Positions 25,820-29,120 of a stretch of DNA of 36,720 bases are shown here, in pieces. The DNA comes from a virus: the IMG/VR virus record IMGVR_UViG_3300029258_003252, positions 1 through 36,720 of that record; one strand, given 5' to 3'. The notes under the pieces are model-generated. The model saw only the letters and a program-made list of their open reading frames with translations, was not told the origin of the DNA and did not search any database. Position 1 is the first letter of the stretch. Each line of letters starts with the position of its first letter. Made by a program: the position numbers and the translations under genes.

Positions 25820-27352
25820 TTACGCCGTCTTCCGTACCGGCAGCGGATAATTCATGATGTCCATCAGCAATTCCAGACGCGAGGCCTGGGTCAAGTACGG
25901 GATCAAGTTGGGCAAGGAGTAGTAGTCTCCATCGAAATCATAGGCATTCGCTTCGAAACCGGCATTCGTCGCCTGTTTTGCGAAATCGTGTTGGTTGTTC
26001 CTGTGAGGACCACAACGCAAAATGAAAACGGAGGGCTGCACGTTCAAGTGCAAAGCGTATTGCTTGAGCGAAGTCAAGAACGGCGGCGAAGTATTTTGTC
26101 CTTCGTCGGTAATCATGACAATCTGCTCGACACGCTGCTTCGCCATCGTCAATGCAACCAGACCACAACCGCAAGACGTGCAGCCACCGGCACCAATGCC
26201 CCGGAAAGCCCTTTCCCAGGAATCAAGGTCTTCACCCTGACTCTGGATTGGGTACGGGATCGTGTCGAAAGCGTACACGAAGAGGTTGGAATCGGTGATC
26301 GCGGAGATCATTGCGGCCATCCTCTTACCGATTTCGATAGCATCATGCATCGAAGACGACTTGTCAACCAACAGTGCGGTCGGACGCTCGATTCGACCCT
26401 TGGCCTTGACCTGAGCGTCGGCAACCTCACCCAACTGCTGGGCGATGTCTTCGGAGACTCCCGAAGCCTTGACAGCCTCGGCGGTCTTCATGGCCGCAAC
26501 TCGCTTGCCCGTCTTGGCCTTCTCCAGACGATCCTGGATCTTCGCCCTCAGGTCTGCGTTATCGAAGGCTCCTCGACGCTTGAGCGAACCAATGTTGTTG
26601 ATAAGCTCCTGGTCGGACATCACTTCGATCAACGCATACAGGACCGTAGGGGTCATGGTCTTGACAACAGTAGATGCCACACGATACGGAATCTTGTTGT
26701 CAATAATCGCCTGAGCCTGCTCGGCGGCGGTCGTCGCCTTATTCAAGGCCTTGACAGCCGAAAGCTTGCTATCCTCAGGCGGCTCTCCTTCGAACAGGAT
26801 CTTCTGAGCCCGTTCCGTAGGCGAAATGTGAAGCAACGCATACAGCCGCTTCATGTGCTTGCGAGCCGTAAGGACGCAAGAGTCGAACCAGCCAGGATCT
26901 TCTTCACGCTCACGCATATAACGGATCACTTCCGTTCGCATGCTTCGCGGAATGTTCTGGAACAAACCCTGCTTCTCTTCACGAACCGTAGTTGTGGTAC
27001 GAGCCCGACGACCATAGCCGGTCGTTTGCTGAACACGCTTCTTGACCTTCTTGCCGCTGATGAAGTCAACGACACGGCCAACCTGATAAGGTGGCAGATC
27101 GCGAAGCATGGCCAAACCGGCATCTCGGTGACCTTCGAAGTCGGACAGGCACAAGTTGATGATGAACATTTCCTTATGGTCGCGGATTTCCCCGCTAGCC
27201 GTGTACCACGCAGCAAGATGACCATAGAACAGCGGGTCCTGTTGGATCATTTGCTTGTGGACAGGGTAGAAACCCTGCAAATCTCGGTGAGGGGTTGTAA
27301 GCAAAGTGTTAAGGATACCAAGACGTTGGTCTTGTTCAGTCGTTTGAGTCAT
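25820..27352 (-). CDS. TROVE-vWA protein (Ro60/Rsr-like)
   Basis: 510 aa, the usual Ro length. Residues about 20-320 are helical repeats (TROVE/HEAT-like) with DPLFYGHLAAWYTASGEIRDH, a typical Ro start. Residues about 325-500 form a von Willebrand A domain whose MIDAS is intact: D330-K-S332-S-S334, Thr392 and D416 (VMITDEGQN). Ro60 is a ring that binds misfolded small RNAs and Y RNAs; in bacteria Rsr works with exonucleases such as PNPase. The gene is visibly more GC-rich than its neighbours. It is coupled to the acidic gene upstream, and the tRNA/Y-like RNA array lies 0.4-1.8 kb upstream on the same strand. Confidence 0.9.
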   Translation of the reverse strand: MTQTTEQDQRLGILNTLLTTPHRDLQGFYPVHKQMIQQDPLFYGHLAAWYTASGEIRDHKEMFIINLCLSDFEGHRDAGLAMLRDLPPYQVGRVVDFISGKKVKKRVQQTTGYGRRARTTTTVREEKQGLFQNIPRSMRTEVIRYMREREEDPGWFDSCVLTARKHMKRLYALLHISPTERAQKILFEGEPPEDSKLSAVKALNKATTAAEQAQAIIDNKIPYRVASTVVKTMTPTVLYALIEVMSDQELINNIGSLKRRGAFDNADLRAKIQDRLEKAKTGKRVAAMKTAEAVKASGVSEDIAQQLGEVADAQVKAKGRIERPTALLVDKSSSMHDAIEIGKRMAAMISAITDSNLFVYAFDTIPYPIQSQGEDLDSWERAFRGIGAGGCTSCGCGLVALTMAKQRVEQIVMITDEGQNTSPPFLTSLKQYALHLNVQPSVFILRCGPHRNNQHDFAKQATNAGFEANAYDFDGDYYSLPNLIPYLTQASRLELLMDIMNYPLPVRKTA

Positions 27353-27641
27353 CTTTTTTCTCCTCTAGTTCATTCATCTCGCCATCAATATCTTTAAGGG
27401 CCTCCAAGTTGGTGCCCTCAACCACAAACCTGATTTCTTTTGTTTCGTCATTCTGTGCTAGACCAATGATGGGATGGTCAATTACCATCATTAGGTCGCC
27501 TTCCTCATCGTGGATCTCCTCTCCATCCTCGACCTCAAGGGCATCCATTGCCTCTTTGTTGATTTTGATGTACCCACTTAGGCAAATTTCGTAATCATCG
27601 TCAAATTCGCCCAAGTGTTCGATGAGGTCTTTCTTTTTCAT
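27336..27641 (-). CDS. Acidic small protein coupled to TROVE gene
   Basis: 101 aa. Very acidic (IHDEEGDLMMVIDHPI; LEEKKDDSND C-terminus). MKKKDLIEHLGEFDDDYEICLSGYIKI resembles small phage proteins that begin 'KKxDLIExLxxFxDDxEV'. Its stop lies 14 nt inside the TROVE reading frame, so they are co-translated. Function unknown; may assist Ro. Confidence 0.65.
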   Translation of the reverse strand: MKKKDLIEHLGEFDDDYEICLSGYIKINKEAMDALEVEDGEEIHDEEGDLMMVIDHPIIGLAQNDETKEIRFVVEGTNLEALKDIDGEMNELEEKKDDSND

Positions 27642-27691
27642 GTCCCCGCCACCATAAAAAGAGGTCCATTATCCCCGCCACCATGAAAAAA

Positions 27692-27711
27692 GGGAACCGC
27701 TAGCGGTTCCC
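27692..27711 (-). terminator. Intrinsic terminator after the RNA array
   Basis: Perfect 20-bp palindrome GGGAACCGCTAGCGGTTCCC followed on the minus strand by TTTTTT. It ends the tRNA/Y-like RNA transcript before the TROVE operon. Confidence 0.85.
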
Positions 27712-27722
27712 CAAATTTCAAA

Positions 27723-27848
27723 TTTACCCGTCCAAGTCGAGAAACCGTTTGGTAAACAACAGGAATTGAACCTGCAACTTCAGTTTAATGGACTGATGCC
27801 CTACCATTGGGCGATGTTTGTAAGGTCCCAAAGTATGGGACGGATAAA
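27723..27848 (-). tRNA. Y-type element Y1: tRNA with Y-like terminal stem
   Basis: The 5' and 3' ends pair over 11 bp (P2: TTTATCCGTCC / GGACGGGTAAA). Inside come box CATACTT opposite CGACTT, P1 (GGGACC/GGTTTC), then TTACAAACA. The enclosed tRNA has a perfect D-arm (GCCC..GGGC), an anticodon arm TCAGT-CCATTAA-ACTGA (anticodon ATT by position, but C33 instead of U33), a canonical T-arm (GCAGG-TTCAATT-CCTGT) and a 5-bp acceptor AAACA/TGTTT ending in encoded ACCA. It begins 2 nt after tRNA-Asn X1. Decoding identity is uncertain. Confidence 0.7.
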
Positions 27849-27850
27849 AG

Positions 27851-27974
27851 AGGCCGGGGTCGGAATCGAACCGACTTAGTTTTCTTAACAGGAAAACCTT
27901 ATCCATGTTTGTAGGCTTACACTGTAGGGAACGGTTGCCCGTTCAAGTCACGCAAGCAGGTCTCTTTCCCGGCC
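27851..27974 (-). tRNA. X-type element X1: tRNA-Asn(GTT) with 53-nt D-loop insert
   Basis: Acceptor GGCCGGG/CCCGGCC, D-stem CCT/AGG, anticodon arm with loop CTGTTAA (GTT), T-arm GTCGG-TTCGATT-CCGAC. The D-loop carries the module at 27905-27957: P1 GCTT/AAGC, GACTT, P2 GAACGG-GCAA-CCGTTC, CCTACAG, TACAAAC. Without the insert it is an ordinary 71-nt tRNA. A mature tRNA would need the insert to be removed or tolerated. Confidence 0.85.
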
Positions 27975-27980
27975 AATTTT

Positions 27981-28018
27981 GCAACCTTGTGGGTCGCTTT
28001 GCGTCCCCCGCTGGTTGC
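27981..28018 (-). other. Hairpin before X1
   Basis: GCAACC/GGTTGC closes an inner hairpin (CGC-AAA-GCG with GGG/CCC) just upstream of tRNA-Asn. It has no T-run, so it is not a standard terminator. It may be a processing or leader structure. Confidence 0.4.
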
Positions 28019-28041
28019 TTTGCATCCGAGGTAAACAAAGT

Positions 28042-28610: not shown

Positions 28611-28615
28611 TAAAT

Positions 28616-28713
28616 TTTTCTGTCTGAGTCGAAAAAGCTTTCTGGTGCCCGCTTATATGTGCGGGCGAACATCCTAATTATGTTTGTAAGCTCGTTCTAT
28701 GTGAGACAGAAAA
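28616..28713 (-). ncRNA. Y-type element Y3: tRNA-like RNA without T-arm
   Basis: P2 TTTTCTGTCT/AGACAGAAAA formed by the ends, box CACATAG opposite TCGACTC, P1 AGCTT/AAGCT, TTACAAACAT. The interior holds only two hairpins: AACAT-(7 nt)-ATGTT and GCCCGC-ACATATAA-GCGGGC, the latter followed by ACCA. No T-arm and no sensible anticodon loop, so it cannot be a normal tRNA. Best described as a Y-RNA-like tRNA mimic. Confidence 0.6.
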
Positions 28714-28715
28714 GT

Positions 28716-28804
28716 GGAGGGGACCGGATTCGTGGCAATAACACCTAGTTTGTATGCTTTGCGATTTCTCGTCCAAGTTGGAAAAGCCGGAAACTTTTCC
28801 CCCC
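28716..28804 (-). pseudogene. X-type element X3: decayed tRNA with D-loop insert
   Basis: Acceptor-like GGGGGGA … TCCCCTCC, then the module at 28748-28788 with P1, AACTT, P2 5' strand and GAAA loop, and TACAAAC, but the P2' end and second box are deleted. The anticodon arm is missing and the T-arm region is scrambled (CCACGAATCCGG). A dead member of the X series. Confidence 0.55.
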
Positions 28805-28815
28805 ATCTATAATTT

Positions 28816-28854
28816 ACGGTTGCTCGTCCTTTTATTCGGAGTCAACACAACCGT
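28816..28854 (-). ncRNA. Stand-alone module hairpin (Z)
   Basis: ACGGTTG/CAACCGT (7 bp) encloses TGTTGACT and ACGAG around a short CC-(8 nt)-GG helix. It keeps the GACTC box of the array module but has no tRNA attached and no TACAAAC. It may be a remnant or a minimal form. Confidence 0.4.
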
Positions 28855-28866
28855 AGGGTTTTAATT

Positions 28867-28988
28867 AAATCCGCCCGAGTCGAAGGAGCAGTCCCCACTG
28901 GCACTTAGGGCCAGCAGGGTGCCCGGCATTCATCGCCGGGCCAAACATCCGAAGAGTTTGTAAGCTCTCATCAGTATGGGACGGAAAA
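28867..28988 (-). ncRNA. Y-type element Y4: cloverleaf-like RNA with terminal stem
   Basis: P2 TCCGTCC/GGGCGGA from the ends (extendable by flanking T/A), box CATACTG opposite TCGACTC, P1 GAGC/GCTC, TTACAAAC. The interior has three strong hairpins: CAAAC-(9 nt)-GTTTG, GCCCGGC-GATGAAT-GCCGGGC, and a 10-bp hairpin around loop CCTAAGT. Two 7-nt loops sit where anticodon and T loops would be, but neither has U33 or TTCRA. A tRNA-shaped non-tRNA. Confidence 0.6.
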
Positions 28989-28990
28989 GG

Positions 28991-29120
28991 CGGGGGAGCT
29001 TGGATTCGAACCAAGTTCTTCTAGTTTTCAGCTAGACGTTTTACCGTTTGTATGCTTTCGCTGTGGGGGCGATTTCTCGCCCAAGTCGTGGAAGCAGTCG
29101 AAGTGATTAACTTCTCCCCC
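28991..29120 (-). tRNA. X-type element X4: tRNA-Phe(GAA) with 51-nt D-loop insert
   Basis: Acceptor GGGGGAG/CTCCCCC, D-stem GTT/AAC, anticodon arm TCTAG-CTGAAAA-CTAGA (GAA), T-arm CTTGG-TTCGAAT-CCAAG. The D-loop module at 29046-29096: P1 TGCTT/AAGCA, ACGACTT, P2 GGGCGA-GAAA-TCGCCC, CCACAGC, TACAAAC. First RNA of the array, behind a boxA-like site. Confidence 0.85.

Follow-up and report, generated by a model that had tools for sequence, protein, structure and literature searches.

Y RNAs of the YrlA type carry a tRNA-like domain made of D, T and acceptor arms, without an anticodon arm, that is modified by DusA and TruB, and structured RNA is degraded by a machine composed of Ro60, Y RNA and PNPase (PMC8394870). 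Competitive inhibition of an anticodon nuclease has also been proposed as a role (PMC7790460). In viruses, TROVE proteins have been noted in jumbo phages (PMC7824862), and in Listeria phage CKA15 abundant noncoding RNAs have been described next to a putative Rsr (PMC12282133). Here we describe a locus of the IMG/VR virus record IMGVR_UViG_3300029258_003252, the whole 36,720 nucleotides (nt) of which are called the window below, and in which all features noted are on the minus strand. A gene encoding a Ro60-like protein lies there beside an array of eight RNA elements. Computational analysis established the fold of this protein, the stem module shared by the elements, the covariation of this module, its genome-wide association with Ro60 and the types of cargo that it carries. 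The array elements are almost certainly Ro60 ligands, i.e., Y RNAs, since their module covaries, is tied to Ro60 across genomes and shares ACUUG with YrlA.

A divergent Ro60 protein encoded beside an RNA array

The array (27724-29120) is found upstream of the Ro60 gene on the same strand. The Ro60 gene is therefore downstream of the array, as had been stated in an earlier reading of the DNA made from its letters alone (the sequence-only reading), with a small open reading frame (ORF) and a terminator-like hairpin intervening:

25820-27352, minus strand: Ro60-like protein of 510 amino acids (aa), with a TROVE-type HEAT ring and a vWA domain with a metal ion-dependent adhesion site (MIDAS), as judged by AlphaFold model, Foldseek and MIDAS alignment; relatives in phages and bacteria
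27336-27641, minus strand: small ORF between array and Ro60 gene, present only in the window
27691-27712, minus strand: terminator-like hairpin at the end of the array

By its predicted structure, the 510-aa protein is a divergent Ro60. In an AlphaFold model built from eight homologues (predicted local distance difference test, 83), the ring-plus-vWA fold of Ro60/TROVE spans the full length of the protein, and the first 13 Foldseek matches of this model in the PDB are all Ro60, Rsr or TROVE chains (E 1.5e-11 to 2.8e-9, Foldseek probability 1.0, template modelling score about 0.6). Together with the invariance of MIDAS residues D330, S332, S334, T392 and D416 in eight homologues, these matches bear out the earlier claim of a TROVE-vWA protein with intact MIDAS. 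The likeness to Ro60/Rsr (TROVE, PF05731) thus concerns the full-length fold, HEAT ring and MIDAS-containing vWA domain included, whereas identity to solved Ro60 chains is 12-15% and the protein has no Pfam TROVE match. Sequence searches alone do not reveal TROVE, as phmmer reached the solved TROVE chain 9l5y at E = 0.06 only. In eight whole genomes carrying Ro60 genes of this branch, Pfam TROVE misses these genes and gives only two matches, both elsewhere; the branch is therefore easily overlooked.

The closest phage relatives of the window are L001 (73%), L002 (63%) and LR756511.1 (58%; a 595-kb phage). A search of bacterial genomes with the Ro60 alignment detected 265 relatives; the 80 that were kept are mostly from Planctomycetota and Cyanobacteriota. 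In the Ro60 tree the phage clade (window, L001, L002, L004, L133 and L006; Shimodaira-Hasegawa-like approximate likelihood ratio test, 96) falls among Planctomycetota sequences, so that these phages probably acquired the locus from Planctomycetota-like hosts.

Eight elements built on a single stem module

All eight elements are built on one shared stem module, the putative Ro60 handle, which consists of helix P1, an internal loop with RACUY and CCYAC on opposite strands, helix P2 and then UACAAAC. Half A of this module runs P2-strand, RACUY, P1-strand, and half B runs P1-strand, CCYAC, P2-strand, UACAAAC. In the four elements of Y order, B precedes the cargo and A follows it, the two RNA ends forming the module; in the window these cargoes are tRNA-like or hairpins. 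In the four elements of X order, A leads into B through a tight loop that is often GAAA, and the module is a closed hairpin within the D loop of a tRNA. Read on the minus strand from 29120 to 27724, the succession is X, Y, X, Y, X, Y, a small gene, X, Y:

28992-29120, minus strand: E1, X order, tRNA with anticodon GAA whose D loop holds the module as a GAAA-looped hairpin
28867-28988, minus strand: E2, Y order, two hairpins close the module, without tRNA
28710-28803, minus strand: E3, degenerate X element, GUCCCC gone from the B half
28616-28713, minus strand: E4, Y order, hairpins close the module, without tRNA, folding z -6.3
28471-28609, minus strand: E5, X order, tRNA with anticodon UCU and 7-bp acceptor whose D loop holds the module as a GAAA-looped hairpin
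28340-28468, minus strand: E6, Y order, tRNA-Ser-like core, anticodon UGA, without long variable arm
27852-27974, minus strand: E7, X order, tRNA-like RNA whose D loop holds the module hairpin, loop CUGUUAA, anticodon GUU
27724-27847, minus strand: E8, Y order, tRNA-Asn-like core, anticodon AUU, C33, ACCA after a 5-bp acceptor

Seven of these elements are more stable than their own shuffles (z -1.9 to -6.3), E3 folding no better than its shuffles (z -0.4). The sequence-only reading had taken the X elements to be working tRNAs onto which the stem is grafted. The D-loop graft is indeed present, but "working" is unproven. Functional phage tRNAs would have their X RNAs processed by RNase P and used in decoding, and Ro60 would protect or check them by way of the D-loop handle; several X cores, once the graft is removed, do show 7-bp acceptors and full cloverleaves. 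We nevertheless consider this quite unlikely, since E3 is degenerate, one X element of L001 is without a normal anticodon loop and orthologues differ in their anticodons (see below), while among the Y elements E8 has C33 and the Ser-like E6 has no long variable arm.

The two orders of the module (A-loop-B within an exon in X, B-exon-A in Y) also recall a mini-intron, which would be spliced in normal order in X and permuted order in Y, and would restore or circularise tRNAs. Circularly permuted tRNA genes occur in algae and archaea, and some cargoes resemble them in that the T-arm half precedes the D-arm half; they differ in that the permuted tRNA here sits on a Ro60 stem, with no splicing signal seen. 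We rejected the mini-intron as exceedingly improbable, because RtcB was not found in nine related phage records and because splicing makes no sense for lone stems and rRNA chimeras, the minimal elements being mostly stem.

Recurrence of the module and its tie to Ro60

A finder that uses the module alone, and that requires pairing at the first P1 positions, detected 299 elements at 78 loci versus five null matches in 1.64 Mb (both strands; shuffles, all loci pooled), and the module is therefore not a product of chance. It was found in 68 of the 80 Ro60-clade bacterial genome loci, with at least two elements in 57 of them, and nearly all module matches in these loci (235/238) are on the Ro60 strand. 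As pairing at the first P1 positions is demanded by the finder itself, we assessed covariation at positions 7-10 of this helix, which the finder does not use; there, 2.70 of 4 pairs are Watson-Crick, as compared with 1.10 after re-pairing of halves between elements (maximum 1.27 of 200). A covariance model, the E-values of which are rough, was built from 24 minimal elements of other genomes, none of them from the window; it recovers the four Y-order window elements (E 2e-5 to 1.3e-4), and in six whole genomes (5.6-11.8 Mb) each of its 17 matches is no more than about 4 kb away from the single Ro60 gene. The sequence-only reading had asked whether array and TROVE co-occur or are found independently of each other; by these locus, strand and whole-genome counts, the association holds.

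Among the phages, arrays adjoin Ro60 in L001, L002, LR756511.1, L133 and the more distant L006, and diverged versions of the array occur in L008 and L009. D-loop grafts with closed hairpins are confined to the six-member phage clade named above, and seeming X-order matches in bacterial loci were dismissed as mispaired neighbouring elements or chance. A strict DNA pattern matched one viral contig and no genome contig. As a separate observation, a module match of L010 (1393-1472; E 7.7e-6, rough) lies in a tRNA-like cluster about 8 kb from Ro60 and adjoins a full-length, sub-threshold YrlA match.

In L002, L004 and L008, the module, lacking UACAAAC, is found in the leader of the Ro60 gene, and in L002 it encloses the ribosome-binding site; in 42 genome loci the nearest element is at most 200 nt from Ro60. 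With the module present in its own leaders, Ro60 probably autoregulates through it; this arrangement also supports binding of the module by Ro60, which we hold to be very likely. The same leaders and short distances would be expected of an autoregulatory sponge, where the module mainly sets the Ro60 level and the cargoes merely stabilise the RNA. Such a sponge leaves the conserved and elaborate cargoes unexplained and is in our opinion unlikely.

Relation to known Y RNAs

The overall earlier reading, tRNA-fused Y RNAs beside a Ro60-like gene, is supported with corrections. As expected of Y RNAs, the elements are encoded beside Ro60, and they have tRNA-like D, T and acceptor arms, to which many add an anticodon arm, others carrying hairpins or rRNA cargo. 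Y-order elements have a stem formed by the RNA ends with the internal loop of a Ro60 site (ACUUG strand), the stem of X order being internal instead. The 3' basal strand of the Rfam YrlA consensus, CCCCAA-AAACUUG-UCGCC, fits the P2-RACUUG-P1 order of half A, and the resemblance previously noted between the ACTY-stem arrangement and the ACUUG side of Y RNAs stands, both occupying the same 3'-strand position. That the elements have exactly the layout of YrlA was too strong a statement: the end-formed stem and the tRNA-like domain are there, but the tRNA-bearing Y elements of the window join the stem at the acceptor end and, unlike YrlA, keep the anticodon arm.

Likeness to YrlA (RF02553) extends to the permuted T-acceptor-D cargo of some relatives, whereas the CCYAC of the 5' loop strand, the several attachment points, the rRNA cargo and arrays of up to about 14 elements set the present RNAs apart. 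They are also below the Rfam cut-off everywhere tested: the RF02553 gathering score (69 bits) was not reached, with no match in the window array at E<=10 and 27.8 bits for the best relative, and Rfam searches of the array at E<=10 returned only tRNA and chance families. Listeria phage CKA15 is similar in that noncoding RNAs immediately precede its Ro60-like gene on the same strand, whereas the available part of its description contains no tRNA grafting or rRNA mimicry (PMC12282133).

tRNA and rRNA cargoes

Cargoes were typed using ARAGORN on re-circularised Y cores, a looser automatic first-pass typing having been discarded. A tRNA was detected in 148 of 264 re-circularised cores, whereas three shuffled sets yielded no tRNA. 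Points of stem attachment are the acceptor end, the variable loop (L004, L006), a site near position 26 (L053) and, in phages only, the D loop; attachment in the variable loop and near position 26 arises through permuted tRNA. BLAST searches against Escherichia coli rRNA found 23S positions 1910-1942 (helices 69-71) in 17 elements and, in six elements, both positions 1055-1112 (GTPase centre) and positions 2653-2667 (sarcin-ricin loop); the other matches were scattered singles, and shuffled sets gave 4-10 chance queries. Profile searches gave E 9e-8 for helices 69-71 and E 5e-11 for the GTPase centre; the sarcin-ricin loop segment is short and alone marginal (E 0.14), with an exact 14-mer in 5/6 elements. 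These rRNA cargoes are bacterial, mostly cyanobacterial, and a link between Ro60 and rRNA mimicry was not found in the literature searched, which left subscription journals mostly outside. Other cargoes are short loops or anticodon-like hairpins. We also would like to point out two long structured RNAs with the module in L004 (8690-9070 and 9560-9960), the first of which ends in helix 69-like segments.

Five orthologous tRNA-bearing elements of the window and L001 are 64-86% identical outside the anticodon arm, and the anticodon differs in four of the five pairs (UCU/AUU, UGA/UGU, GUU/UCC and AUU/ACG), GAA being kept. In five Nostoc-group orthologues, 5/7 anticodon-loop columns vary versus 1/10 stem columns. 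An effector-nuclease tether, as in the Deinococcus Rsr-Y RNA-PNPase machine, where cargoes would dock a ribonuclease or hold modification enzymes while Ro60 feeds in structured RNA, is established for YrlA-type Y RNAs (PMC8394870), and the permuted T-acceptor-D cargo scores as YrlA-like, below cut-off. We find it somewhat unlikely here, given that it leaves unexplained the anticodon diversity, the loop-specific variation, the anticodon-hairpin cargoes and the three defined 23S sites.

Instead, we favour a display system, in which the locus would encode a Ro60 ribonucleoprotein with several interchangeable RNA partners, Ro60 binding the handle and presenting the variable cargo; taken as a whole, such a Ro60-Y RNA system appears to us fairly likely. 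As the cargoes show many anticodon identities and, in bacteria, 23S sites that are targeted by ribonucleases and other translation inhibitors, they might be baits or sensors for enzymes attacking anticodon arms and exposed 23S sites, a role that we put forward tentatively and with somewhat less than even confidence. The ribonucleoprotein would then soak up such enzymes or signal damage, perhaps via the neighbouring ThiF/JAB genes.

Several observations weigh against this proposal. The module was not detected in 12 of the 80 genome loci, some of which are incomplete, nor in several viral Ro60 loci, where the modules have possibly diverged, and L011, a fragment of 58 kb that carries the module, lacks Ro60. 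Furthermore, the helix-69 copy of phage L004 is marginal (E 0.028), rRNA mimicry in the window's own elements is not above chance, the anticodons on display include some that are unusual for bacteria (A34, e.g., AUU), and the anticodon nuclease that has been studied does not cut Salmonella YrlA (PMC7790460).

Neighbouring genes and other features of the record

The following features accompany the Ro60 gene and the array:

28042-28266 (ATG at 28266), minus strand: small conserved gene within the array, with homologues in 41/80 genome loci
28294-28321, minus strand: promoter-like site TTTACA-16-TATAAT preceding the small conserved gene; 11/12 matches, the count of promoter-like sites being not above shuffles
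19625-20296, minus strand: ThiF/E1-like protein, conserved near Ro60 in 26/80 genome loci
20514-20906, minus strand: JAB/desampylase-like protein, conserved near Ro60 in 7/80 genome loci and most close phage relatives
21707-22579, minus strand: protein of no named family, conserved near Ro60 in 29/80 genome loci

The small conserved protein is modelled as beta-beta-alpha-beta-beta, with ThiF and JAB nearby; a ubiquitin fold is unconfirmed for it, the PDB search having given no significant match. The presence of the ThiF-like, JAB-like and small conserved proteins near Ro60 suggests a downstream protein-modification step. In Nostoc, a gene for an AAA and OLD-like TOPRIM protein (L106, 7523-8800, minus strand) adjoins the Ro60 locus.

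Elsewhere in the window, a further tRNA cluster, of conventional type and interspersed with HNH-like ORFs (31368-36079), contains isotypes that scarcely overlap those of the module array, and a group I intron (35163-35352) apparently splits the anticodon loop of tRNA-Arg (UCG); two group I introns are present in L001. An RNase P RNA-like match (19352-19549; 57.1 bits, E 4.7e-15) is under the Rfam cut-off, and a match to bacterial small signal recognition particle RNA (18803-18892) is over it. Repeated ORFs with signals resembling those of twin-arginine translocation (MNRRDFLKGTAAAGAAAVLP; 423-3513 and 12738-13367) are a possible hint of a planctomycete host, and an ORF at 11012-12238 was judged TnpB-like by eye.

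Significance

With the elements described here, Y RNAs come to include not only single tRNA mimics but also arrays with anticodon arms and pieces of ribosomal RNA, and such arrays belong to a Ro60 branch missed by standard models. It is conceivable, and we say so with due reserve, that in this unrecognised branch of cyanobacteria, planctomycetes and phages the Y RNA arrays constitute a displayed panel of translation targets that baits or senses RNA-damaging toxins, and that phages captured this system and invented the D-loop grafts. The old question of why Ro60 RNAs mimic tRNA is hereby made directly testable, and our results suggest that bacteria and phages could widely employ RNA decoys against nucleases that target translation.

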